A stretch of 23,493 nucleotides of DNA from a virus, in IMG/VR virus record IMGVR_UViG_3300035698_002828, positions 1 to 23,493 of that record; one strand, written 5' to 3'. The position numbers were made by a program, and so were the translations under genes. The notes under the pieces were generated by a model. It was not told the DNA's origin and did no database searches. It was given only the letters and a program-made list of their open reading frames with translations. Shown piece after piece: positions 3,425-21,085 of this stretch. The first letter of the stretch is position 1. The number at the start of each line of letters is the position of its first letter.

Positions 3425-5092
3425 GTGGATAAGATTAAAGAGACAGCTAAATTAACATCAAGTGAATGGTTGAATAAAGTCAAGGGGTGTATGAGCGATT
3501 TATCAGCACTTCATTTAAGACAAGATAAAGATAAAGACCGTATAAATAATGAACCATATAAAATGAAAGCTATTGATGGCAAGAACGATGAGAAAGATAT
3601 GGCTAATGTCACATTGCCTATCGGGCAACTCTATATTGAATCTGCTATCTCTAACCTTATTAGCGTAACAAAGCAGACAGTTGTTTCCGGGAAGAAACCA
3701 AACGACAAAGAGACAACTAAGGTTGAGGAATTTCTTGATGATTTGAATTACGAGATAGATAAACGATTAACAGAAAACGGAGAGAGCGAGGAGTTTGCTA
3801 CACTAGCAGATTATGTTTGTTCTCGTGGTTCTGCTGCTGAAATGAATCTACTGAGAGTAGATAAAGATGGAGAGTTTATAGCAGATGTAAGACCGATTGA
3901 TACACGCTGGTTTGCTTGGGAGTTTGGTAAAGGTGGGTTAGCTTGGGGTGCTCCTACGTATAATCGAACAAAGGGTGATATACAGGCAGAGTTCGATATT
4001 ACCATTCGAAGTGCTGAAGCTGAAGTTGTTGATTTATGGACTCCTGATTGGGAATACACTTGGGTTGATGGCAAATTAGTCCGAGACCAAGCTAATGATT
4101 ATGGTTTTGTTCCTATCGTATTTCAAGGTGTAGCAGTCGGTTCAGCTTTAAGAGAAAAGAACTCTATACAATATAAATGGGATTCTATATTTCATTCCAG
4201 TAGGGAATTATTTGACGAAGCTAACTTTATAGCTACTGTAATCAAAACACAGAACTATTCAGCGAATAAGCCTCCACTTCAATTACCTAATCCTTCAAAT
4301 GGAGTTCGCCAAGCAGAACTTCCATTTTATCCAGGAGCAGGCGATATAGCTTCTGTAGAAATTCCCTTACAACCTGTTAATGTTGGGGACCTTAAACAAT
4401 ACACAGTTAAGTATCAAGAGATTATCAATACGCTAATTAGTCAAGCTACATTTAACAGTATTGATTTAGGAGATATTCCTTTTCCATTAAGTGCTGTTGC
4501 TATATCAAGATTGTCAACTAATAGAAACAAGATGCAATATCATAGGCTATTAGCTTTAAACCAGATATTACAGCGTTCAAGTGCTATGAGAATTAGACAA
4601 GTTATAGGGCTTGCTCAAACAGTAAAACTTGGAGAACTTGGACATCAGAGAGAATATAAACCGCAAGACCTTGAGGGTGAATATTCAATCAAGTATAGAT
4701 TCTATAGTTTATCAAGTGAGGATATAGCAGCACAAGGTACTATATCGAATGTACTCGGCTCTCTTGTTAGTGAAGATTATAAACGCAGAGAGATACTACA
4801 TTTGTCTGACCCTGATGGGGAGAAACAGAAACAACGTGCAGAACTTGCTGAAAGTGTGGACCCTGTAATTGGTTTAATCGAACAAGGGTTATCTTTAATT
4901 GAACAAAGCTCTGATGATTCAGATATTAAAGTAAGACGTATATATGGGAAAATCATTGGCATATTGAAACAGGAAAAATTAGCTGAAACTCAACCATTGA
5001 ATCAAGATATAGAACGTGGCTCAACTGCCCCACAGAACCCAACACAGTCTTTAGCTTTGTATGGTGGTAATGATTCCACAAGGAGTAGTTAA
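3425..5092 (+). CDS. portal protein
   Basis: I chose GTG at 3425 because AGGAG (3415-3419) lies 5 bases before it; a TTG at 3410 would also work but has no such site and overlaps the terminase. The product has about 555 residues, a normal size for a portal, the 12-subunit ring through which DNA enters and leaves the capsid. Supporting features are its place right after the large terminase, a long helical middle (SSRELFDEANFIATVIK followed by an NKPPLQLPNPS loop), a beta-rich region around residues 130-250, and a polar, Gln/Ser-rich C-terminus (NQDIERGSTAPQNPTQS). No catalytic motif defines portals, so the call rests on context, length and general resemblance. Confidence 0.8.
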   Translation: MDKIKETAKLTSSEWLNKVKGCMSDLSALHLRQDKDKDRINNEPYKMKAIDGKNDEKDMANVTLPIGQLYIESAISNLISVTKQTVVSGKKPNDKETTKVEEFLDDLNYEIDKRLTENGESEEFATLADYVCSRGSAAEMNLLRVDKDGEFIADVRPIDTRWFAWEFGKGGLAWGAPTYNRTKGDIQAEFDITIRSAEAEVVDLWTPDWEYTWVDGKLVRDQANDYGFVPIVFQGVAVGSALREKNSIQYKWDSIFHSSRELFDEANFIATVIKTQNYSANKPPLQLPNPSNGVRQAELPFYPGAGDIASVEIPLQPVNVGDLKQYTVKYQEIINTLISQATFNSIDLGDIPFPLSAVAISRLSTNRNKMQYHRLLALNQILQRSSAMRIRQVIGLAQTVKLGELGHQREYKPQDLEGEYSIKYRFYSLSSEDIAAQGTISNVLGSLVSEDYKRREILHLSDPDGEKQKQRAELAESVDPVIGLIEQGLSLIEQSSDDSDIKVRRIYGKIIGILKQEKLAETQPLNQDIERGSTAPQNPTQSLALYGGNDSTRSS

Positions 5093-5329: not shown

Positions 5330-8300
5330 ATGGCTAATCAGATTGAAATAAAAAAACCGAAATTGCCTCCTATAACTGATACCACATTAAACCAAGACGA
5401 ATTGAGCGAACAACTGGCTATTCTTGCAGGTGTTCCGGGTACTCAACCTAAAATTGAACAGCCTGTTATCGAAGAACCTATCATAGAAGAACCAATTGAA
5501 ACTCAAGAGATTAAGACGGCAGATTTAATGTATCAGAACTCACAGCTAGCCAAAACTGCGTCTAATTTTGCAATAGCAAGGGGCGTTTCCCCTTCGGCTG
5601 ATTGGCTCTGGAAACTAGGGGGTGATGTCGATTTAGTTCAACTGTCAAGCGGTTATATATGGAATAACGGCGGCTCTGATTCTTTTGATGATGATATATT
5701 CACTTCCCCTGAAGGTATGGATTATTCTTATAATGAGTTTTCACAGATAGCAAGTGAAAGCATAGACCCTTTATTGCTGGAAGATTATGCAGGGATTACA
5801 GGGGAAGGTACAACTGAAGAACAACGTGCTGCTAACATCATAACTGGGATTGACTATCTATTTCCAGAAGATGATGCTTATGATACGGCTGATTATTATT
5901 TCGGCTCAGAAGATGAGGAAGAATATAATACTCGTATGGCTGAATTTTTCACTAAAGTACAAGAGGCTGGCAGAACTACTGAAACTATCAATATGCTTAA
6001 AGGAATGGGATTAACAGACGAAGATATAAATATCGTATTCCCTGTTGTAGCAACTGAGGATATATCAGGGATAACAGGTCAACCATTAACAGATGAACAA
6101 AAAGAATTGGATATTTATCAAGGGATAACAACTCTTTTCCCCGATACTGATTATGAAGAGCTGTATAATTATTACTTCGGCTCATCTGATGAAGATGAAT
6201 ATAATGCACGTACAGATGAGTTTATAAATGTAGTTTATGAATCAGGGAGAACTAACGAAAATGTCTTAATGCTTAAAGCATTGGGATTGACAGACGAAGA
6301 TATAAATACCATATTCCCTGTTGTACCGGAAGAAACAGTTTCTGAAGATTGGTGGCACTCTGTATTATGGAACACTAGAAGTACGGTTACTACTTTCGAA
6401 TCAGGTCTTTTCACAATGTTAAAGGGTTTTATCAATCAAATAGAATTCGTCCCCAGTGAAGATGAAGAGGGGAATATAGTATTAAATGAAGAAGCAGTTG
6501 ACAAAATGCCTTGGTTGACGGATTGGTTAAATGAGAATATAGAACGTAATCAGGAAGAACTTGTACAATGGCAAGAGGAACATCCGGGCTATGCTTCAAC
6601 TAAATATGATGATGCTGATTTAGGAGATGCAGAAACATATACGGATTGGGGCTTTTATGCAAGTCAAATACCTAAAGCCATCCCTACAATTGCAACCTTA
6701 TTGGCTGCTGTTATTACATTAGCTGTAACTAAAAATCCTGCGGCAGCTAAGACCGTTGCTTTTGCATTATTTGAGCCACTTAATGTACAAGGTGTTTATG
6801 AGGACTTAATGGCAACAGGCAATATTGATGATGAAGAGGCGACACAGTTATCTAATATGGTTGGAACAGCTATAAGTGCTTTAGATATAACTTCAGTGGG
6901 TATAACGTGTAAAGTTCTATTAGCCCCAGCGATGAAGCTGTTAAAAGGCACAATAATTAAAGAAGTAACTAAACATATAATAAAGAATCGCACAAAGAAA
7001 CAGCTAGTAATTGGGGCTGGTAAAGCCTTTACTGCTGTTGAATTATCAGAACTTGTAACTGAAAATCTACAGAATATTATTCAGAACGCAACTGTAAAAG
7101 CATTTGACGAGAATAGAGAATTACTCGAAGGGTGGGGAGAGACTACAATCCAAGTTGCTATAACTATGCTCCCATTTGGCTTCTTAGGTGGTGGTGCGTA
7201 TTATACTCAAATGAAAGCTAAGCTTCCAACTGATATTCAAGCTAATATAGATACAACTGCAAGCAAACTTGTTGAAGCTGGTTTTGAAGAAGAACACGCT
7301 GAATCAATCGCTGTTACCAGAGAATTAGAGAAGAACGAAGATGTTTTTAAAACAGCTATCGAACAAACGCAAGAAGAAGTTGATAATGGTACGATAGAAA
7401 AAGTTGAGGAAGGCGTTTCTGTTCCATTTATGATTACAAAAAAGATGACTTCTGACTTATTGGCTAAAGGCTATTCACAAAGAGATATAGACTCAATGAC
7501 GGCTAAAGAGGCTAATGCTAATTTACAGGTCGAAGAAATAACTAAAGAACAAGTTCCCATAACAGGGGAGGAGATAGCAAAAGAGTTAGGGGTTAAGTAT
7601 GATGGGGTACAAGAGGGTTTCGGTGATATTCCAAACCAAATGCAATTTACTGACCCTGTAACAAAATCAACAACTTACGGTAATACATTAGAAGAAGCAC
7701 GAACTAAAATTAATGAAATGAGAACAGAGTTTGGTGTTGAGCTATTGCCAGAAGTAAAGGTTACTAAAAAAACTACAATGGCTGGTGTAGAAAAGACTAT
7801 ATCAAAATTACCACAAGAATTAAAATCGCTTGTGAGTAGTGCAAGTAATTTAAGCAAAGCAGAGTTTATTGAACAATACCAAGCAGGTCTTAATGAACAG
7901 AATTTAACACGCAGAGAAACTGCACAAAAAATAGACTCTTATATTAAGAAAACATTAAAAACAACTCCCGAACAATTCTATGATAATTATGTTTCTAAAG
8001 AACAACCAACAACCAAAGCAATCCCCCAATCCATAGACAAAATGGAATCTCGTATAAGTGAAATGACAAAAGAAGAATATAGCGATTACGTTGATTCTCC
8101 AGAAGGTAAAAGCGAATGGGATAAAGTAAGAACTTGGAATAATGAACAATCTAAACTAGGGCGTATTGATAAAACTGGACAAAAAGCTGTAGATGTTTAT
8201 TATGATGAAGTTGTCTCTCAAATAGAACAACCAACAGAGCAAAAAGGTAAAGAAGCTGGTTTTGGACCGGGTTCTCCCAAGTGGAATGAACTTGGTGATG

Positions 8301-11002
8301 TAATGGCTATGATACCTACTGGTAATCTTAATGCAGACCAGATAGACGGTATATGTAATACATTTGGTGAATTGATAGCAAGTAAAGAGGGCGAAGCTAG
8401 AATGGCTTTGACTACTAAACTTCGCAAGGCTGAACGTGCAAAGAGGGCTGCCAATTATAGCGTTAGAATACAAGAACTTATTATTGAAGGATATGACGCA
8501 GAAACAGCAGAGGGTATGGCACGAAAAGAAATTATGTCAGGAGAACTTCCACGAGTAGATAACGAAGTATTAAAAGAAATCACAGGAGACCTTAGAAAAG
8601 CATTACACGCTAAAGTCTATAATACTTTAAGAAATGACCCATACGAATTAATGTCCACTACGGAAGCTCTTATTCACGCCTTAGACGGCAAACCAATTCC
8701 TAGAGAACCCGGCACAAAGGGTGGTTCTGCTTATTCAAGACTTATGCGTGTCTTTAGCGATATGCCAGAGATTATGGATGTACTTGAAGAAGAGAAACCG
8801 ATTGAAGATATAATCGAAGGTGTATTTAGAGAGTATGGAGACCCAATAGATTTAGACCAAGAGATGCTTGATAGACTTCGTGACTTACCTGATATTGGCA
8901 GACAACTGGCACTATTTGAAGGACCGACTAAGCAAGAGGTCAAGATAGCCGTTGAGGGCACTTACAAGATAGCTAAGCAGAGATTAGATGCTCACTTGAA
9001 AGCTGGAACTATAACGCAAGGTGAATACGATGTCCAGTTAGCTTACGCAGACGAAATGGCACACGGTGTTGGTAGAGTCAATTCCTATGAACCTGCTATC
9101 AATACTGAGATAAATAAGAAGTCTGTATTTTCCAAGAAAGAACAGATATTACTTGTTAGAGTTATGAAGGCTACAGGCAAAGATATAATATTCATAGGCA
9201 ATCTTTTAAGGGCTTTAAAGGCTTCATTCGATATGTCATTTGGCAGACAGATGGCACCACTAATTATTTCACATCCTAACATTTTCAAGATGGCATTTAT
9301 TAAAAACTGGAACGCATTTTTTAGTGAAGCGACAGCAGATGCGGAATGGCAACTGCTAAAGAGAAGAACCGGATTCGCATTACACCAACAATACCAAGGT
9401 GATGTATTTAGAATGAGGGAGTTTAAAAAAGGAACTGCCGCCTATCTAAAGACAGAAGAATATGGATTTTTTGATAAAGAAGGTGCGTATGAAAAATTAG
9501 CTCTTAAAGCGTTTCCATGGATTGACTGGTCTCAAAGGGCATTTGAAACAGGAATTAACTCAATGATATGCGACTTAATAGAAAGTTTCTATGGTACGCA
9601 ATTAAGAATACAAGAACAATATGCAAATGGTGAGAGAACACTCAAAGAGGGTGAGGCATTTGACATCCACAAGAATATGCAACAGTACATGGAACACATT
9701 GCCAATGCTTCAGGTAGGGCACAAATAGGAGGTAAACTTGGTGCTATCGCTCCTTTTGCAAATGCTATGTTCTTCTCACTTAGATTGAACATAGGCAGAT
9801 TGGTTTCTGTAAAGTCAATGTTCTCTGGTAATAAATATGTTATGAAGGAGGCTTGGAAAGATTTTGGTTCTTTTGTTGGTGTGATTAGTTCAATAATGTT
9901 ATTAGGTGCTATTGTAGGATTATGGGAAATAGAGGAAGACCCACGTAGTACCAACTTTATGAAGATACGAGTAGGGAATATACGAATTGACCCATGGGGC
10001 GGTTATCAACAATTTGTAGTGTTCTTTGCTAGGGTTATAACGAAAACTGGCTTAGTTTCAACTTCCGAGATGGAATATGATGTTAAATGGATAACAGCAA
10101 TAACCACATTTTTAAAGAGCAAGGCATCTCCATTAGCATCTACTTTAATGGAATTTGAATCTGGTAAAGACTATTTCGGGGATGAGATAGATTTAACCGA
10201 TGCAAGCGCATGGGTTGAGAGATTTGTTCCTTTTGCACTTTTGGATATATACGAAGCATTCCAAGAACAAGGATTTAAGGGTGCTATTATTTCGCTTCCT
10301 GCTTTGCTTGGAGTTAATATACAAGCCTATTCAGGTGATTGGACAGAAAACTTTCCTAAATTAGGCACACCTAAATTCCCTGATAATGAAGCGTATGGAG
10401 TAGATGAACCAATTTATGATACTGGGGATTTATATTCTGATACAGCTTCTCAATTCAAAGGTGTTGACCCTGCAACGATTACTGAGAGCAAGGGTTTCCC
10501 AAGTTATGTAACATCTATTGTTGAAGCAAGACAAGTTATAGATAGTCTAAGCGAAATGGAAAATGACGACAGGAAAGAGTGGTTAAGAGAGAACACGGAG
10601 GCTAACGCTTTACTTGCCGTTTGGAGCAAGTCAGATTTGTATTCAATGGAAGCCTATAATAAAGCCGTTAAAATAGCTAATGATTTAGATATTCCACAAG
10701 ATTCAATAGACTGGGAATTACCAACCAAAGAGTCATTTAGGAATTGGTTTAACTACCTAGATGATATGAGTGTTTACGATAAGGATAGAGATAGTTCAAA
10801 AGCTTCATTACACAATACATTCAATAGTTTGCGTAATGTGACTGAGGACAATCTTAAATACTTCTACTGGGATATGGAATACTCATTATTGAGAGATGAC
10901 GATGGTAGTGCTGACACATCTGCACGAAAGGCTTACAGAAGAACACACAAGAGTTATGATAAATACGGAATTAGTGAGGAGTGGTTTAAAGAAATGACTT
11001 AA
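5330..11002 (+). CDS. giant polyvalent virion protein, LPD38-like
   Basis: The 1890-residue product fills a quarter of the window. Order: a Pro/Glu-rich N-terminus (EEPIIEEPIE near 45); two 92-residue tandem repeats (about 155-246 and 247-338); hydrophobic segments near 451-480 and 609-625; a YDG...FTDP...NEMRTEFG segment around 750-805; a helical region with STTEALIHALDGKPIPREP near 1107-1125; and a C-terminal domain from about 1290. The last carries ISHPNIFK and DPRSTNFMKIRVGN...IDPWGGYQQF near 1537-1562, which I recognise from phage proteins labelled large polyvalent protein-associated domain 38. A further hydrophobic stretch (about 1514-1533) precedes that motif. Such proteins are thought to be packaged and possibly ejected with the DNA; no catalytic triad is evident. 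Position between portal and scaffold fits an internal virion protein. Confidence 0.75.
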   Translation: MANQIEIKKPKLPPITDTTLNQDELSEQLAILAGVPGTQPKIEQPVIEEPIIEEPIETQEIKTADLMYQNSQLAKTASNFAIARGVSPSADWLWKLGGDVDLVQLSSGYIWNNGGSDSFDDDIFTSPEGMDYSYNEFSQIASESIDPLLLEDYAGITGEGTTEEQRAANIITGIDYLFPEDDAYDTADYYFGSEDEEEYNTRMAEFFTKVQEAGRTTETINMLKGMGLTDEDINIVFPVVATEDISGITGQPLTDEQKELDIYQGITTLFPDTDYEELYNYYFGSSDEDEYNARTDEFINVVYESGRTNENVLMLKALGLTDEDINTIFPVVPEETVSEDWWHSVLWNTRSTVTTFESGLFTMLKGFINQIEFVPSEDEEGNIVLNEEAVDKMPWLTDWLNENIERNQEELVQWQEEHPGYASTKYDDADLGDAETYTDWGFYASQIPKAIPTIATLLAAVITLAVTKNPAAAKTVAFALFEPLNVQGVYEDLMATGNIDDEEATQLSNMVGTAISALDITSVGITCKVLLAPAMKLLKGTIIKEVTKHIIKNRTKKQLVIGAGKAFTAVELSELVTENLQNIIQNATVKAFDENRELLEGWGETTIQVAITMLPFGFLGGGAYYTQMKAKLPTDIQANIDTTASKLVEAGFEEEHAESIAVTRELEKNEDVFKTAIEQTQEEVDNGTIEKVEEGVSVPFMITKKMTSDLLAKGYSQRDIDSMTAKEANANLQVEEITKEQVPITGEEIAKELGVKYDGVQEGFGDIPNQMQFTDPVTKSTTYGNTLEEARTKINEMRTEFGVELLPEVKVTKKTTMAGVEKTISKLPQELKSLVSSASNLSKAEFIEQYQAGLNEQNLTRRETAQKIDSYIKKTLKTTPEQFYDNYVSKEQPTTKAIPQSIDKMESRISEMTKEEYSDYVDSPEGKSEWDKVRTWNNEQSKLGRIDKTGQKAVDVYYDEVVSQIEQPTEQKGKEAGFGPGSPKWNELGDVMAMIPTGNLNADQIDGICNTFGELIASKEGEARMALTTKLRKAERAKRAANYSVRIQELIIEGYDAETAEGMARKEIMSGELPRVDNEVLKEITGDLRKALHAKVYNTLRNDPYELMSTTEALIHALDGKPIPREPGTKGGSAYSRLMRVFSDMPEIMDVLEEEKPIEDIIEGVFREYGDPIDLDQEMLDRLRDLPDIGRQLALFEGPTKQEVKIAVEGTYKIAKQRLDAHLKAGTITQGEYDVQLAYADEMAHGVGRVNSYEPAINTEINKKSVFSKKEQILLVRVMKATGKDIIFIGNLLRALKASFDMSFGRQMAPLIISHPNIFKMAFIKNWNAFFSEATADAEWQLLKRRTGFALHQQYQGDVFRMREFKKGTAAYLKTEEYGFFDKEGAYEKLALKAFPWIDWSQRAFETGINSMICDLIESFYGTQLRIQEQYANGERTLKEGEAFDIHKNMQQYMEHIANASGRAQIGGKLGAIAPFANAMFFSLRLNIGRLVSVKSMFSGNKYVMKEAWKDFGSFVGVISSIMLLGAIVGLWEIEEDPRSTNFMKIRVGNIRIDPWGGYQQFVVFFARVITKTGLVSTSEMEYDVKWITAITTFLKSKASPLASTLMEFESGKDYFGDEIDLTDASAWVERFVPFALLDIYEAFQEQGFKGAIISLPALLGVNIQAYSGDWTENFPKLGTPKFPDNEAYGVDEPIYDTGDLYSDTASQFKGVDPATITESKGFPSYVTSIVEARQVIDSLSEMENDDRKEWLRENTEANALLAVWSKSDLYSMEAYNKAVKIANDLDIPQDSIDWELPTKESFRNWFNYLDDMSVYDKDRDSSKASLHNTFNSLRNVTEDNLKYFYWDMEYSLLRDDDGSADTSARKAYRRTHKSYDKYGISEEWFKEMT
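5792..6343 (+). repeat. 276-bp tandem repeat inside the giant gene (two copies)
   Basis: Copies of 92 codons at 5792-6067 and 6068-6343. Both encode GIT-G at the start, a Y-Y-FGS acidic stretch in the middle, and a LTDEDIN-FPVV end. They have diverged at DNA level but key residues remain, so this is an old internal duplication, not an assembly artefact. Confidence 0.88.
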
Positions 11003-14404: not shown

Positions 14405-14740
14405 ATGGACAGTTTTACAAAATCAAAAGGCAGGGCAAGACGGATAACTACTGTCACAGGAAGCCACTGTAATGGTAAGGGTGAACTAATAGCTAAAACG
14501 TTCAGTGTACAGCCCCCAGACCCGCCACAGGGCGTTAGCCCGAGGTGTATGTGGAAGTTCTTCCGAGATACTTTGTTCTGTGCTTTACTATCAAGTTATC
14601 ACACTCGGAGAGTTACTTATGCAGAAGCCAACAGACACAAAAAGATATTAGAAAGGTACAGGACTGGTGAGCCTTCACCAGACACCATCTATAAAACATT
14701 AAGGGAGAATATATTACTAATTTTTAGGAGGACAATTTAA
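14405..14740 (+). CDS. hypothetical basic protein
   Basis: The 111-residue product begins 1 base after the previous stop and ends with its stop codon TAA sharing its last base with the next ATG. The ribosome-binding site is weak, so coupling to the upstream gene is likely. It is Arg/Lys-rich, with SKGRARR near 7-13 and a helical second half (YAEANRHKKILERYR near 76-90). Single cysteines are scattered and no zinc motif forms. Position hints at a small head-completion or assembly protein, but this is not shown by sequence. Confidence 0.6.
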   Translation: MDSFTKSKGRARRITTVTGSHCNGKGELIAKTFSVQPPDPPQGVSPRCMWKFFRDTLFCALLSSYHTRRVTYAEANRHKKILERYRTGEPSPDTIYKTLRENILLIFRRTI

Positions 14741-15156
14741 TGGCACAGACAGATATAGTCACAGACCAAGGTATAGGAGAATTGATTTTACTCTGGAGAG
14801 AAGAAGCGGCAACAGGGATGGAAAGTATTGTATGTCTTGATAAAGCAACGGTTGTTACAGCAGCCGCAGGCTCAACTTTTGCCGCTCCCGGTTCTACATC
14901 GGCACACCATACAGACTCAGGACTTGCAATTCAGGCAATAGATACAGTTGGCGGTGATACGACCAACACGGCTGGAGACACGATTACTTTTGACCACGTA
15001 TTCACAGCAACAGCTACTAAAAATGTAGCGGGCATTCACGTTTGCAATAACGATGATGACGCAACTTTTATTGAAAGTGGTTTTAACGCAGTTCTCGCAA
15101 TGGAAAATACTGACACTTTAACAATCGATGGACAAAGTACGATTGACCAGGCTTAA
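14740..15156 (+). CDS. hypothetical beta-rich virion protein
   Basis: A 138-residue product with AGGAGG 8 bases before its ATG. The opening MAQTDIVTDQGIGELILLW resembles the start of several phage tail-fibre-associated or structural proteins that begin with a -TDIVTN-G-pattern. The rest is Thr/Ala/Asp-rich and predicted to be beta structure, with DTITFDHVFTATATKNVAGI near 80-100. No membrane segment. Probably exposed on the virion or part of a fibre attachment complex. Confidence 0.62.
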   Translation: MAQTDIVTDQGIGELILLWREEAATGMESIVCLDKATVVTAAAGSTFAAPGSTSAHHTDSGLAIQAIDTVGGDTTNTAGDTITFDHVFTATATKNVAGIHVCNNDDDATFIESGFNAVLAMENTDTLTIDGQSTIDQA

Positions 15157-15260: not shown

Positions 15261-15299
15261 ATGGCGGATTATAAAGTAAAAGAATTAGGTGATGTATGA
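15261..15299 (+). CDS. 12-codon micro-ORF overlapping the adhesin start
   Basis: ATG at 15261 follows the previous TAA directly and encodes 12 residues (MADYKVKELGDV) ending in TGA at 15297-15299. That stop overlaps the ATG of the adhesin gene in ATGA. It may serve mainly as a coupler that carries ribosomes to the adhesin start; a functional peptide is less likely. Confidence 0.4.
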   Translation: MADYKVKELGDV

Positions 15300-17743
15300 G
15301 TACTGAAACATTAAGACCAAATGGTGCTGGCGCTGATTATACTGTTACTGGTATAGGAGATATTGATAGTCAGTACCCCAATAATGGTTATCATTATCAG
15401 AAAGTGGATGAATCAACTGTTGATGATGACGATTATGTTTATGATGACGGGAGTGGACTTGACTTATACACACTTCCTGATTTATCAGTATCTAGTGTCA
15501 TAATTAGTTCTATAAGAGTTTGCGTACGTGGCAAGGCAAGTGGTACCGATTCAGGTAATCATACATACCCTGCTATTAAAGTGTCTGGAAGTGATTCGGC
15601 GTATCAAGGTAGTACAGGGTACAACAATACCTATTTTTACAATCATTATGCTGATTGGGCTACTAACCCATATACTGGTGAAGCTTGGACAATAGCTGAT
15701 ATAAATGCTCTCCAAATTGGAGTAAGAATTTATAATGAAAGCACTGGTGATACTATCTATTGTTCCCAAGTATATGTTGTTGTTACTTATACTGCTGTTA
15801 CTAATTATCCCATCTCATTATCACCAGGGGTTGACGCTTCAGCTAGTATTGCATATAAAGCAGCTTGGGATAGAACAATAAGCCCTAGTTTGGATGTAGC
15901 AGTGGCAGCAATAGCATACGTGTTTTCACATACAAAAATAATCAACCCTTTGCTTACAGCATCCGCTACGATAAGTAAGGCAGTAACTTGGACTAAAGCA
16001 ATATCTTCTGGGTTGACTACAGCAGTTAGTATAATCAAGAGTGGTGCGGCCACAGTAGTAACATCTGTTGGATTGGCTGTAAATACTGTAATAAGCAGAG
16101 TTACAACTTTGGCAAAGGCGTTATCCTCTGGGGTAGCGGCATCTGCTACGGTAAACAAAGCATTAACTTGGACAAGAGCAATGTCATCTGGGTTGACTAC
16201 AGCAGTTAGTATAATCAAGAGTGGTAAGGGCGCAGTAGTAACATCTGTTGGATTGGCTGTAAATACTGTTATATCACGTAGTTTGACACATACTAGGGCG
16301 ATTACATCAAATATAGTGGTAAGTTCTACCATATCACGTGGCTTGACATATTATAGAGCTATCGGGACTAGGACTCTAACTGCCACTATAGACCCTGACG
16401 ATATAGACAGTGATTTATCTGACTTCCCTGTTTATATCAATCTATCTACTTCGGCTGGCAAAACTAACGCTGATATATCTGCTATCTTTGACGAGATTGG
16501 AGCAAACTACCAGAAGCTACGAGTTACTTGTGGTGGCGTTATGTGTTCTGTCGAAGTTGTTAGTTGGGATGCAGGGGATGAAGCCGCAGAACTATGGGTT
16601 AAAATTCCAACCATATCCTCTTCTGCTACTACAACCATAATTATACAGGCTCTATCTTCTTACCCCGATAATCCGAATGTGGGACTGACAGGCTCTACTC
16701 CTGCCCAATCTGTATGGGCTTCTAAGTTCATTTTTATTCATCACGGCAACGACCTAACGACATCAACAATAGCAGACAGTACCTCTAATGCGAATAACGG
16801 TACAAAATATGCTGCGAACGAGCCTTTAGAAATAGATGGCTCGATAGGCAAAGCACAGAGTTTTGACGGCTCTAATGATGTTACTACGCTTGCCAGTAGT
16901 ACCTCTTTTAATGCTTTGAGTACAGAATTGACTATCATTTCGCTAGTAGAGAATAAGAGCGATGTATGGGAAGGTATATTTACTCGTGGTTATTTATGGG
17001 ACGCAGATAGCTGGGGTATTTGGTGGGCTCCCGAAAATGGTTATAACTTAAGAATTAGAGCTGGTTCTGCAACAAAAAGAACAAATTATATAAAACCCGC
17101 ATTAAACACACAGGCTTGCATAGGATTTACTTATAACTCTGGAACTGGCATCCCATATCTCAATGGTGTGGGTACTACGCCTACTACAGATATGGCAGTT
17201 ACATTACCGGACAAAACAGGGGTAGATGTAACAATCGGTAGAGACAGGGCTGATTATCAGTTTAATGGCTCTTATGATGAAATTTGGGTACTTAATGAAG
17301 AACAGTCTGCTGATTGGATGGAAACAACTAATCTAGCTTTGACCGATGCACTTCTGACATTCAGTTCGGTTTCACCTACTTTGGGAATAAATACATCTTC
17401 GGTGATAGATAGGGCATTTGATGCTACAAGAGCTTTATCGGCAGGAATAACTATATCATCTACTATCGCCTATCTTATGGCTTGGGTAAAGACAACAATG
17501 CCTGGTATCACAACTGCGGTTAGTATAATTAAAAATATAAATGAGACAATCCATATTACAGTTAATTTAGTAATAAGTTCTACCATATCAAGATTATTTG
17601 GTAGGATAATCTCTGTATCAACAAACTTGACAGTGGTTGCAGTAATTACAAGATTAGTTCGTAGAATTCTCCACTTAGGAACACGTTCTAACAGTTTCAC
17701 TGCAAAAACCAGAGATAACAAATTTAATCTTCCAAGGAGATAG
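15296..17743 (+). CDS. large repeat adhesin/tail fibre with DUF2341-like and LamG-like domains
   Basis: The 815-residue product is built as: an N-terminal beta domain (1-170) with a Y-Y-Asp-rich face; about nine 20-residue repeats (175-355); a DUF2341-like domain (about 360-450, DPDDIDSDLSDFPVYINL); a LamG/concanavalin-like domain (about 455-680, IADSTSNANNGT, QSFDGSNDV, YNGSYDEIWVL-like end); five more repeat units (692-793); and a basic C-terminal tail. LamG folds often bind sugars, and DUF2341 often accompanies them in surface proteins, so host receptor binding is likely. Repeats have consensus S-x-G-[LIV]-x5-[ST]-x-I-x-[KR]. AGGTGA lies upstream and the start overlaps the micro-ORF stop. 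The exact fibre location is not known. Confidence 0.75.
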   Translation: MSTETLRPNGAGADYTVTGIGDIDSQYPNNGYHYQKVDESTVDDDDYVYDDGSGLDLYTLPDLSVSSVIISSIRVCVRGKASGTDSGNHTYPAIKVSGSDSAYQGSTGYNNTYFYNHYADWATNPYTGEAWTIADINALQIGVRIYNESTGDTIYCSQVYVVVTYTAVTNYPISLSPGVDASASIAYKAAWDRTISPSLDVAVAAIAYVFSHTKIINPLLTASATISKAVTWTKAISSGLTTAVSIIKSGAATVVTSVGLAVNTVISRVTTLAKALSSGVAASATVNKALTWTRAMSSGLTTAVSIIKSGKGAVVTSVGLAVNTVISRSLTHTRAITSNIVVSSTISRGLTYYRAIGTRTLTATIDPDDIDSDLSDFPVYINLSTSAGKTNADISAIFDEIGANYQKLRVTCGGVMCSVEVVSWDAGDEAAELWVKIPTISSSATTTIIIQALSSYPDNPNVGLTGSTPAQSVWASKFIFIHHGNDLTTSTIADSTSNANNGTKYAANEPLEIDGSIGKAQSFDGSNDVTTLASSTSFNALSTELTIISLVENKSDVWEGIFTRGYLWDADSWGIWWAPENGYNLRIRAGSATKRTNYIKPALNTQACIGFTYNSGTGIPYLNGVGTTPTTDMAVTLPDKTGVDVTIGRDRADYQFNGSYDEIWVLNEEQSADWMETTNLALTDALLTFSSVSPTLGINTSSVIDRAFDATRALSAGITISSTIAYLMAWVKTTMPGITTAVSIIKNINETIHITVNLVISSTISRLFGRIISVSTNLTVVAVITRLVRRILHLGTRSNSFTAKTRDNKFNLPRR
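15818..16360 (+). repeat. N-side array of 60-bp (20-residue) repeats
   Basis: Nine consecutive 20-residue units (one of 21) from residue 175 to 355 of the adhesin. Typical units are SSGLTTAVSIIKSG and SVGLAVNTVISR. A recent 180-bp step (three units) is visible: 15961-16089 closely matches 16141-16269, with an almost identical core from about 16007. Confidence 0.88.
17369..17674 (+). repeat. C-side array of 60-bp (20-residue) repeats
   Basis: Five units (residues 692-793), the first 22 long and the next four exactly 20. They share the pattern of the N-side array, for example MPGITTAVSIIKN and NLVISSTISR, but lie after the LamG-like domain. The array was therefore split by, or flanks, the DUF2341/LamG insertion. 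Confidence 0.8.
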
Positions 17744-18059: not shown

Positions 18060-19667
18060 ATGAAAACATCAATGCAAATACTGAGAGATGCCGCAACAAT
18101 TCTTGAAGACCCAGACTTGAATATATTTAATATTCCTGCTCTTAATCTTCAAAAGCAAGATGGGCTGAATGAGATATCAAGAGTACGCCCATACGAAAAG
18201 AGGGAGTCAAGATTTCTTTCTGTTAGTTCAACCGAGATAGATACATCTGAGGTGAACAATCTAATCCGTGTGTCGAAAGCTGAATATGAGATAGGACAAG
18301 ACCCTAGAGAATACAGGAATGTATCTCAATTTGGAGATACAGTTGATATAAAAACTACTCAGATACCAGTAGCAGATGACGAGGTATATCTCTACTGTAA
18401 TAAATATCATACTTTAGTTGACCCTCCGTCTACTTTAAAAGGAGCGGTTAATCTTATAGCTGGTTATGCAGTAGGTGAGACTTCGATTGTATTAGATGGA
18501 CTTGGAACTGGAATTATATCTTCTGGAACTCTTGTTACTTTTACAGAGATAGCAGGAGAGTACAAGGTTGTTTCAGATGTTCATATAACAACAAACGCAG
18601 CTACTATTACCATTACTCCAGGATTAATAGAAGCCGTAGTTAATGATACCGTTGTTACATTTAAGTGTTCTACAATCTCCCCTGATATGGAAAGCATATT
18701 AGCAAACTATATAGCATCACGGGTTGCAATGAACTGGGCAGGCGTAGGGAGAACTCAGATTGAGTCTGCGGTAGATGCTGTGGCTCTTATCAATTCAACT
18801 ATTGATTCTATGACGGATAGATTAGGGCAAGCCGTAACTGATGTAGGTGGCATAAGAACTCAGACAACAGCCTTGCTAACAGAAGCCGATACTGCTATAG
18901 GAAATGTAGGAACTACTATCAGTACAGCTATGACTAATCTGGAAGCTGCTGTAACAGGGTCGGCTATAGATATCGATAGCGTACAGACAGCAATTAATAA
19001 TGCTCTCGAATTGGCAATAACCGATATAGATTTAAGCAGGGTGTTACTTGCCACAAATATAACGGCAATAACATCAGAAATAGAGAAAGTGGCTGGTGAA
19101 ATTGATTTAGCTAAAGATGACATAGCAAGTGCAAGGGCATTAAACAATACAATCACAGTTGGTCCTTCCCCTGAATCTCAATTACACGCTTCGGCAAATG
19201 CTCAATTAAACGAGGCTCAGGTAATCTTATCAGAAATCAACACATTATCAGGTAATGCTTCGAACATAGGGGCTAACTCTACGATTGCAGGGAACGACTT
19301 AAACATTGCTTCAGGTTATCTTGCGGATGCCAGAACGATTATAAGTGAGAAGTCTAACGAAGCCAGTCTATTATCAGGAATTGGGGCAAGAGAACTCGGG
19401 GCTGCTAATGCTTATGTTTCACAGGCTAGTGTTTTAATCTCCAATGTGGTAAATGCCATAAATGCTTATGCCACATCTGCAACTAAAGAAATACAGATAG
19501 CTAACGGATATTTAAGTCAGTCTAACGGATATGTAAGAGAAATCAATTCAAGGTTATCCGTAGCGAATATAATCACATCCTATCAAAAGTGGGGACAATT
19601 ACAATATCAGCTTGCATTATCTGGACTAAGACAATTACACAAAACAGAAATCTATCACACTTATTAA
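18060..19667 (+). CDS. head-tail-connector-like protein with long helical tail
   Basis: The 535-residue product has AAGGAG before its ATG. Residues 1-120 resemble head-tail adaptor proteins (ILRDAATILEDPDLN then a mixed alpha/beta part). A beta domain appears inserted at 124-202 (VGETSIVLDGLGTGIISSGT). The adaptor resumes at about 205-227 (ISPDMESILANYIASRVAMNW). From 232 to 520 it is almost wholly helical, Ala/Ser/Asn-rich with regular hydrophobic spacing and recurring YLADAR, YVSQAS and YLSQSNGYV motifs: a coiled coil or bundle. The C-terminus is basic and aromatic (LRQLHKTEIYHTY). This could reach from the portal ring to a tail or into the virion core. Confidence 0.6.
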   Translation: MKTSMQILRDAATILEDPDLNIFNIPALNLQKQDGLNEISRVRPYEKRESRFLSVSSTEIDTSEVNNLIRVSKAEYEIGQDPREYRNVSQFGDTVDIKTTQIPVADDEVYLYCNKYHTLVDPPSTLKGAVNLIAGYAVGETSIVLDGLGTGIISSGTLVTFTEIAGEYKVVSDVHITTNAATITITPGLIEAVVNDTVVTFKCSTISPDMESILANYIASRVAMNWAGVGRTQIESAVDAVALINSTIDSMTDRLGQAVTDVGGIRTQTTALLTEADTAIGNVGTTISTAMTNLEAAVTGSAIDIDSVQTAINNALELAITDIDLSRVLLATNITAITSEIEKVAGEIDLAKDDIASARALNNTITVGPSPESQLHASANAQLNEAQVILSEINTLSGNASNIGANSTIAGNDLNIASGYLADARTIISEKSNEASLLSGIGARELGAANAYVSQASVLISNVVNAINAYATSATKEIQIANGYLSQSNGYVREINSRLSVANIITSYQKWGQLQYQLALSGLRQLHKTEIYHTY

Positions 19668-19675
19668 GGATAATT

Positions 19676-21085
19676 ATGAGAACAGTTAGTACATTAGGAA
19701 CTACAGAGGGAGCGATAACAGCCACTCTGGCAACTGCACAGATAAATAATCTTACTCCTTATTTCCATCTGCAATTTGTCAGGAATACTACGCACGCTAT
19801 TGTCGGTGATTATAGTTGTTCAGGGAGTCCTACTGACGCTTCTGCACGATTGCTGTATTTAAAGATTAACGAATTGCCTTATGCAAGTGGGGTAACGACT
19901 TCCACAGGAAGCAATGAATCGACTATTATCTTAAATAACCACGATGCTTCTATCCCAGATTTAAGAGGAACGTATCTTGACCCCGGGCTTGGAAATGTAA
20001 CTTCTGCAGGGAATGAATATTGTATCTTGCCGAGAATGAGGGTCAAACATCAAGTAGAATCGTCTTATCCAGGAGGAGTATTAACTAAATTAACCTTAGA
20101 AGGTTGGGCTGAATCATTAGATGAAGAACACGCAAGGGCTGATAACGCTATAACCGACCCTGCTCTTTATTACTTATTTGATAGGACACATACACCTTAT
20201 GAGATTATGGCTGTCCTTTTGGATTCTAGTGTGTCATCCCTGTTATTCACTCTTGATGCTCTTGGTGTAGATGACGGAATTATAAATACCTTCTTACCTT
20301 ATTTTGAAATCAATGCTGAAAGGAATAAATACGAAAGCAAACTGGCGATTTTAACATATCTGGTTTATATGACTAAATGCTATTACAAGCCATTACCCAA
20401 AGACCATATCGGAATAGTTTATCCACAGGTATCAGATGCAACAGATTTAACCATTTATTCTGACACAAAGCCTTGGTTCTATGAGTTTAACGAAAGGAAG
20501 AATGAAGTTATACCAAACTCTATTCGTGTCTTTTGCAATGCTACTGATATGACAAAGGATTATAACTGGCCGAATATATTATATGGTTTAGCCTATGATA
20601 CCGATTCATATGCTAGATACCAAAAGTATATAACAAAACTTGACCAAGCTCCTAAAATACTAATTCCGGTAGATGCAAACAATAGGGCTGATGCCCAACT
20701 TACAAGAATAAAAGCAGAGGCATTAACTCAAGGGTTAGTAATGCCACACGATTGTAGAATTGAACTATACGACCATTTGCTTATAAGAGATAAGAGAGGG
20801 CGTTCTGCTTATAACGATACGAAAGTAAGGGTATCGGGATTGACTCATACCTATTCAAGAGCAGATGGAGTTTATCGTTTATCTGTTTATGGTGGAGGGC
20901 TTGTTAATTTCCCAATGCAAGAAGAAGCTCCTGTAATTGATAAACAGGATGCGACGCAATTCAAAGCTCCTGATATATATGATGATATTATTCCATCAAC
21001 TAGACCGGGTGGAGCGTTATTTACTGAAGCTCCTGATATATATGATGATATTATTCCATCAACTAGACCGGGAGATATGATTTAG
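19676..21085 (+). CDS. tail hub-like virion protein with duplicated C-terminal peptide
   Basis: The ATG at 19676 has AAGGAT 5 bases upstream; the frame extends further left into the previous gene, but that start lacks support. The product has about 469 residues. The N-terminal part is beta-rich (about 1-150), followed by helical and mixed regions, and a C-terminal section (about 340-430) with LTRIKAEALTQG and IELYDHLLIRDKRG, like the hub domains of phage baseplates and tail caps. The last 40 residues carry two copies of APDIYDDIIPSTRPG, spaced 21 residues, probably a flexible linker or docking peptide. No peptidase motif is seen. Confidence 0.58.
   Translation: MRTVSTLGTTEGAITATLATAQINNLTPYFHLQFVRNTTHAIVGDYSCSGSPTDASARLLYLKINELPYASGVTTSTGSNESTIILNNHDASIPDLRGTYLDPGLGNVTSAGNEYCILPRMRVKHQVESSYPGGVLTKLTLEGWAESLDEEHARADNAITDPALYYLFDRTHTPYEIMAVLLDSSVSSLLFTLDALGVDDGIINTFLPYFEINAERNKYESKLAILTYLVYMTKCYYKPLPKDHIGIVYPQVSDATDLTIYSDTKPWFYEFNERKNEVIPNSIRVFCNATDMTKDYNWPNILYGLAYDTDSYARYQKYITKLDQAPKILIPVDANNRADAQLTRIKAEALTQGLVMPHDCRIELYDHLLIRDKRGRSAYNDTKVRVSGLTHTYSRADGVYRLSVYGGGLVNFPMQEEAPVIDKQDATQFKAPDIYDDIIPSTRPGGALFTEAPDIYDDIIPSTRPGDMI
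20964..21072 (+). repeat. 46-bp exact direct repeat at the end of the hub-like gene
   Basis: Bases 20964-21009 and 21027-21072 are identical, offset by 63 bases (21 codons), so the frame is kept. The repeat encodes APDIYDDIIPSTRPG twice near the C-terminus. Exact identity suggests a recent duplication. Confidence 0.93.

Follow-up and report, generated by a model that had tools for sequence, protein, structure and literature searches.

A putative tailed-virus fibre with a 20-residue repeat array interrupted by a DUF2341-like and ConA-like domain pair

Modular phage adhesins are already known, and several described systems resemble in part the fibre analysed here. The triple beta-spiral shaft of adenovirus has about 15 residues per repeat. 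By analogy, the repeats of our fibre are likewise short and of beta type, have a turn rich in Gly/Pro and would form a shaft, but their units are of 20 residues, they have no sequence relation to the adenovirus repeats, and a trimer is hypothetical for the fibre. Hoc is an example of a phage protein with Ig-like adhesion domains. Such promiscuous domains (modular adhesins, PMC13370021) are optional beta-sandwich modules on different phage proteins; the domain pair of our fibre is the same in this respect, with an adhesive role that is putative here, but it consists of a ConA-like lectin fold and DUF2341 instead of Ig, apparently inserted in a repeat stalk. The BACON-domain arrays of crAss-like phages are likewise tandem arrays evolving by duplication and domain transfer, but in them the carbohydrate-binding-type domain itself is repeated, whereas the fibre repeats a 20-residue stalk unit and has a single lectin-like part (PMC6949934).

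With the known pair of DUF2341 (PF10102) and Laminin_G_3 (PF13385), the fibre has the domain order and fold class in common, and its relatives pass both cut-offs. Unlike the usual pair, the present one lies inside one 20-residue unit, in a phage structural block, and its own DUF2341 score is below the cut-off. Text searches of the open-access literature turned up no report of DUF2341 as part of a phage fibre. A repeat array with such an insertion is a new variation on these modular adhesins.

Architecture of the repeat fibre

The window, that is, the whole stretch of 23,493 nucleotides (IMG/VR record IMGVR_UViG_3300035698_002828) that was analysed, is a 23.5-kb virus record. It encodes a terminase and a major head protein, the latter matching phrog_212 at 3.8e-60, and has putative tail genes. 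The reading frame at 15296-17743 on the plus strand is open throughout, and its product is a protein of 815 residues. The order of its parts is an N-terminal domain, repeat array 1, the DUF2341 and ConA/LamG-like pair (aa ~357-693; hereafter the cassette), repeat array 2 and a tail:

15296..15793, plus strand: N-terminal beta-rich domain (aa 1-166); most relatives have another N-terminal domain
15800..16339, plus strand: repeat array 1, nine consecutive 20-residue units (aa 169-348), by profile and fixed 20-residue steps
15959..16093, plus strand: copy 1 of a three-unit (180-bp) tandem duplication, 89% identical in DNA to 16139-16273
16139..16273, plus strand: copy 2 of this duplication, by DNA self-comparison
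16340..16363, plus strand: first 8 residues (GLTYYRAI) of the interrupted unit, left of the cassette; the repeat score climbs to phase 8 and then drops
16364..16711, plus strand: DUF2341-like half of the cassette (aa ~357-472), by profile and structure model
16712..17374, plus strand: LamG/ConA-like half of the cassette (aa ~473-693), by PF13385 at its cut-off and Foldseek
17375..17413, plus strand: closing part of the interrupted unit on the cassette's right (VIDR, up to aa 706); the re-entry is uncertain by several residues
17414..17653, plus strand: repeat array 2, four 20-residue units (aa 707-786), by profile, shuffles and BLAST
17654..17743, plus strand: Arg/Lys-rich C-terminal tail (aa 787-815) and stop, from sequence

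A profile of the 20-residue unit, made from the relatives alone, detected repeats on both sides of the middle region. It scored 60.7 bits for array 1 and 31.8 bits for array 2, values matched by none of 500 shuffles, while the middle region scored no better against it than its own shuffles. The consensus of the unit was A-V-A-Y-T-R-A-T-S-A/P-G-L-T-V-S-V-T-I-x-R. The period of 20 gave z = 7.8 in array 1 and z = 4.9 in array 2, and the lag of 60 in array 1 gave z = 11.3. At the level of sequence, the repeat, domain pair, repeat architecture of the protein is confirmed beyond chance. The initial annotation had described nine units, two domains and five more units; the nine units and the domain pair stand, and the five are four whole units preceded by part of a fifth (aa ~694-706). 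It had also named a profile comparison of the arrays as a test that could refute it. An HMM of array 1 detected array 2 and vice versa, as none of 500 shuffles did, and a BLAST search with array 1 returned array 2 at E 9.5e-11. Short DNA matches also joined them (77% over 31 nt and 83% over 36 nt). By these sequence comparisons, the two flanking arrays are related to one another.

The three-unit tandem duplication in array 1 is judged recent from its sequence. The array of a relative, L019, also has a tandem duplication, of 120 bp. In the AlphaFold model of the window protein the repeats stood at pLDDT below 50, unlike the cassette, which was modelled confidently (mostly 84-97 for aa 361-690). 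A separate model of 18 repeats had a mean pLDDT of 39 and two strands per 20 residues; used as a hint only, it would make the unit a beta repeat of two strands.

No family was found for the repeats at the curated cut-offs of Pfam, PHROGs and NCBIfam, in agreement with the initial annotation and despite a likeness in register to archaeal repeats described below. The fibre thus adds a 20-residue phage repeat without a curated family. Searches of the repeats against 50,697 phage records (E 10, BLAST low-complexity filter on) gave no match, nor did an initial scan of genome contigs.

The N-terminal domain was 41% identical to that of the relative L104 across the aligned N-terminal part, and a search of named phages with it returned no match. 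A domain of the same type occurs in L082 (9706-10885), fused to a different 20-residue repeat (SxEAFGT type). At the other end, the tails of the relatives are basic or contain Arg but are unlike the window tail in sequence. The fibre C-termini of L109, L100, L105 and L022 have short repeats of about 10 residues, often with Arg and phage-specific (e.g. LYKRAFTASLYLRDMAIKLYKRAFT).

The domain pair and its place within one repeat unit

Laminin_G_3 matched the second half of the cassette with 27.6 bits (E 3.8e-6), exactly at its 27.6-bit cut-off. For DUF2341 the window scored 15.5 bits by hmmscan and 18.1 in the genome search, under the Pfam gathering cut-off of 23.4, whereas the homologous cassettes of L002, L006 and Methanoculleus virus Blf4 exceeded it. 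We therefore call the first half DUF2341-like by sequence and claim no membership from its own score. It was about 45% identical to the cassettes of relatives over the first ~157 aligned residues. Foldseek placed the second half among ConA-like jelly rolls (5hon, TMt 0.76; BFVD A0A6J5NKQ5, TMt 0.78). As modelled, this half has a ConA-like jelly-roll fold, for which glycan binding is only predicted. An identity as a sialidase or clostridial toxin binding domain was rejected, the Foldseek matches being 8-14% identical and indicating the common jelly roll only. The cassettes of L002, L029 and L038 agree at 72-82% identity over their first ~165 residues and at 29-42% beyond, from which we infer that variation lies in the lectin face while the DUF2341 part may act as an unchanging connector.

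When the repeat score was followed position by position, the window array fell out of register at phase 8 to the left of the cassette, and to its right was back in register by about phase 15; in L002 the array departs after phase 15 and returns near phase 17. Since the register exits and re-enters in mid-unit, the cassette sits within one unit and not between units.

Uninterrupted arrays were found in at least nine distinct relatives: L004-type (18 units), L019-type (19), L021 (9), L022 (5), L023 (5), and also L100, L104 (18 units), L105 and L109. The other refuting condition of the initial annotation, domains fixed in all relatives and no repeats, is thus contradicted, and the modular architecture that had been proposed is borne out by the presence or absence of the cassette among relatives. 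L104 combines the N-terminal domain of the window with its 18 units and has no cassette. Three fibres carry the cassette (window, L002 and L029); the contigs of L002 and L029 are 5'-truncated, and the L029 sequence begins inside the cassette, so its left flank lies outside the contig. L029, with the cassette, and L019, without it, share 2777 bp at 94.3% DNA identity and 375 bp at 89%, and their homology restarts within the array, five units past the cassette. Being nearly identical yet differing in the cassette, they point to its recent gain or loss. A natural pair of phages that differ by one lectin-type cassette is thus available, together with a relative in which the N-terminal domain of the window is joined to a cassette-free array, and module swapping along repeat stalks becomes testable on named sequences.

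Of the two origins offered by the initial annotation, insertion of the domains is favoured by the uninterrupted relatives, and growth of the repeats on both sides is borne out only in part, by the duplication in array 1. Growth on both sides does not account for those relatives whose arrays are uninterrupted. A stronger form of it, with an ancestral cassette from which the repeats expanded outward on both sides and which the cassette-free relatives have lost, appears improbable to us. In its favour, tandem duplications of 180 bp in the window and 120 bp in L019 show that arrays can lengthen, and a count of changes over seven relatives does not separate gain from loss. However, at least nine distinct uninterrupted fibres stand against three interrupted ones, the phase within the unit differs (8 in the window, 15 in L002), and the cassettes of the window, L002 and L029 are not one clade: in a 35-row tree, a clade of the three fibre cassettes fitted worse (p-AU 0.034). 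Independent insertion in these three is likely rather than proven, because the window branch is very long and its placement unsure. The cassette-free relatives, the near identity of L029 and L019, and the occurrence of the same pair on tail hubs and in other repeats support the reading of the pair as a mobile cassette placed into an already existing repeat fibre.

We also considered that the repeats had produced a chimeric window contig. The contig is metagenomic, repeats favour misassembly, and the L029-type sequence begins inside the cassette; nevertheless an artefact is hardly credible, since the frame is single, long and open with its phase preserved on either side, and the same architecture occurs in L002 and partly in L029, which come from other datasets.

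The cassette on other proteins and the three-gene module

Tail-hub proteins (L006/L038 and, by reading, L048) carry the cassette too, in their case N-terminally. A 37.6-kb phage record has it N-terminally on a second protein, downstream of the tape measure, and also has an uninterrupted repeat fibre. The L029 fibre cassette clustered with the L038 hub cassette in the 35-row tree (support 96/96). Blf4, the only isolate found here with a homologous cassette, infects a methanogen (PMC8540584). Its tail protein QXM18650.1 carries a homologous DUF2341-LamG cassette (33% identity), but on a Gp37-like tail protein (Sipho_Gp37, 3e-68) without the repeats. In L027 a homologous cassette lies within an array of another repeat type; from 3611 onward it is flanked by repeats of the pattern '(A/S)(D/E)TL(S/A)I(S/A)D', 18-21 residues long. 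The same pattern is seen in the phage and bacterial loci L031, L056, L086 and L092, whose DUF2341-LamG cassettes are followed by other short tandem repeats. The only cellular loci matched were reached via the cassette and are spread over several phyla.

Two genes upstream of the fibre accompany it in relatives:

14405..14740, plus strand: o111, upstream module gene, 44-62% identical in most module relatives
14740..15156, plus strand: o138, a 138-residue protein directly upstream of the fibre, 69-85% identical in nearly all module relatives

The o138 protein of one distant relative was 48% identical. Every gene after o138 that was legible at length (L097, L099/L100, L104, L105, L107 and L109-L112) encoded a repeat fibre; the sequences of L106 and L113 are too short for a decision, and those of L098, L103 and L108 stop before one is possible. 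Small and conserved, o138 is a marker of this type of fibre and presumably a partner of it. The o111 of the relatives is a longer, Cys-rich form. The window o111 is without the CxxC...CxxC stretch of the L004 homologue (3850-4338), a difference that resembles the deletion of a zinc-ribbon-like part.

The terminase, portal, capsid and most tail proteins of the window gave no match to the module loci, the exceptions being the capsid protein, which weakly matched L108 (25%), and o535, which had partial matches in three loci. Judged by these comparisons, o111, o138 and the fibre are a three-gene module common to phages with otherwise non-matching structural genes. More tentatively, it may be a transferable adhesion module of unrelated tailed viruses, with the array as a recombination platform for cassettes, N-terminal domains and tails. 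If so, close phages would exchange binding parts via unit homology, and surface or host binding would alter without the fibre being remade.

Proposed role and related archaeal repeats

The protein is probably a tailed-virus surface fibre of modular build, composed of a repeat stalk, an N-terminal binding-type domain and an optional inserted lectin-like cassette; its virion location, oligomer and ligand are presumptive, as is the use of its repeats as recombination sites. The 20-residue beta repeats would form a stalk with the binding-type domain at its N-terminus, and the number of units would set its reach. Insertion within a unit would make the lectin-like face point sideways from the stalk, where the cassette may give reversible attachment to host-surface glycans. 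For o138, the role would be that of an adaptor or of a partner in assembly.

The gene order of relatives is major head protein, o111, o138, fibre and head-tail connectors, and in a group with a common siphovirus backbone the fibre is found between the major head protein and head-tail adaptor genes. This position suggests a head-associated fibre. In the window the fibre lies several genes past the capsid gene, the connector set of the relatives is absent downstream, and putative tail genes follow. These tail genes, and the fusion of the same cassette to the tail-hub proteins of L006 and Blf4, would fit a tail fibre or a baseplate-associated receptor-binding protein, which would keep the principle of a lectin on a stalk. 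We hold this to be possible but on the unlikely side, as the siphovirus-type relatives have the gene between the major head protein and the connectors, far from the tape measure and hub.

The array profile matched two of 300 genomes from the phylum of L060 (a Bathyarchaeota MAG), and nothing was found with it in about 295 genomes from each of the phyla to which L059 and L056 belong. Both matches (Thermoproteota, L095 and L096) are repeats of 20 residues of the form 'SFxRxxTDSLSxxDSIxK', scoring 42.4 and 77.6 bits, which none of 300 column permutations that kept period and composition reached. The period of 20 residues is common to them and the fibre, with Phe/Tyr, Arg, Leu, Ile and Arg/Lys positions in register, but the archaeal repeats are Asp/Ser-rich, unlike those of the fibre, and an HMM of the 20-residue unit alone did not match them. 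As far as the sequences go, the Thermoproteota repeats have the period and register of the fibre repeats, and the match is of pattern only. Four other phage repeat types, those of L082, L040, L072 and L033, failed the column-permutation test and were rejected as the same family. Pfam matches to DUF4320 and TFIIB on the archaeal repeat, and one to NCBIfam NF033849 far under its 650-bit cut-off, were treated as composition or repeat effects.

These nearest non-viral repeats belong to proteins resembling surface proteins, as would suit a non-virion protein that the infected cell produces and exposes on its surface, where it would alter adhesion or block superinfection. Such a role seems very improbable, because the gene lies within the structural block in every relative and the protein has a plain MSTE... 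start and, on visual inspection, neither an obvious signal peptide nor an obvious membrane anchor.

We therefore keep to the surface fibre as the preferred reading. Elsewhere in the window, which has no tRNA, a protein of 1890 residues without family match is encoded ahead of the capsid genes (5330-11002), with partial homologues in L074 and L092, and one of 498 residues (19589-21085) has a C-terminal tandem copy of 'APDIYDDIIPSTRPG'.
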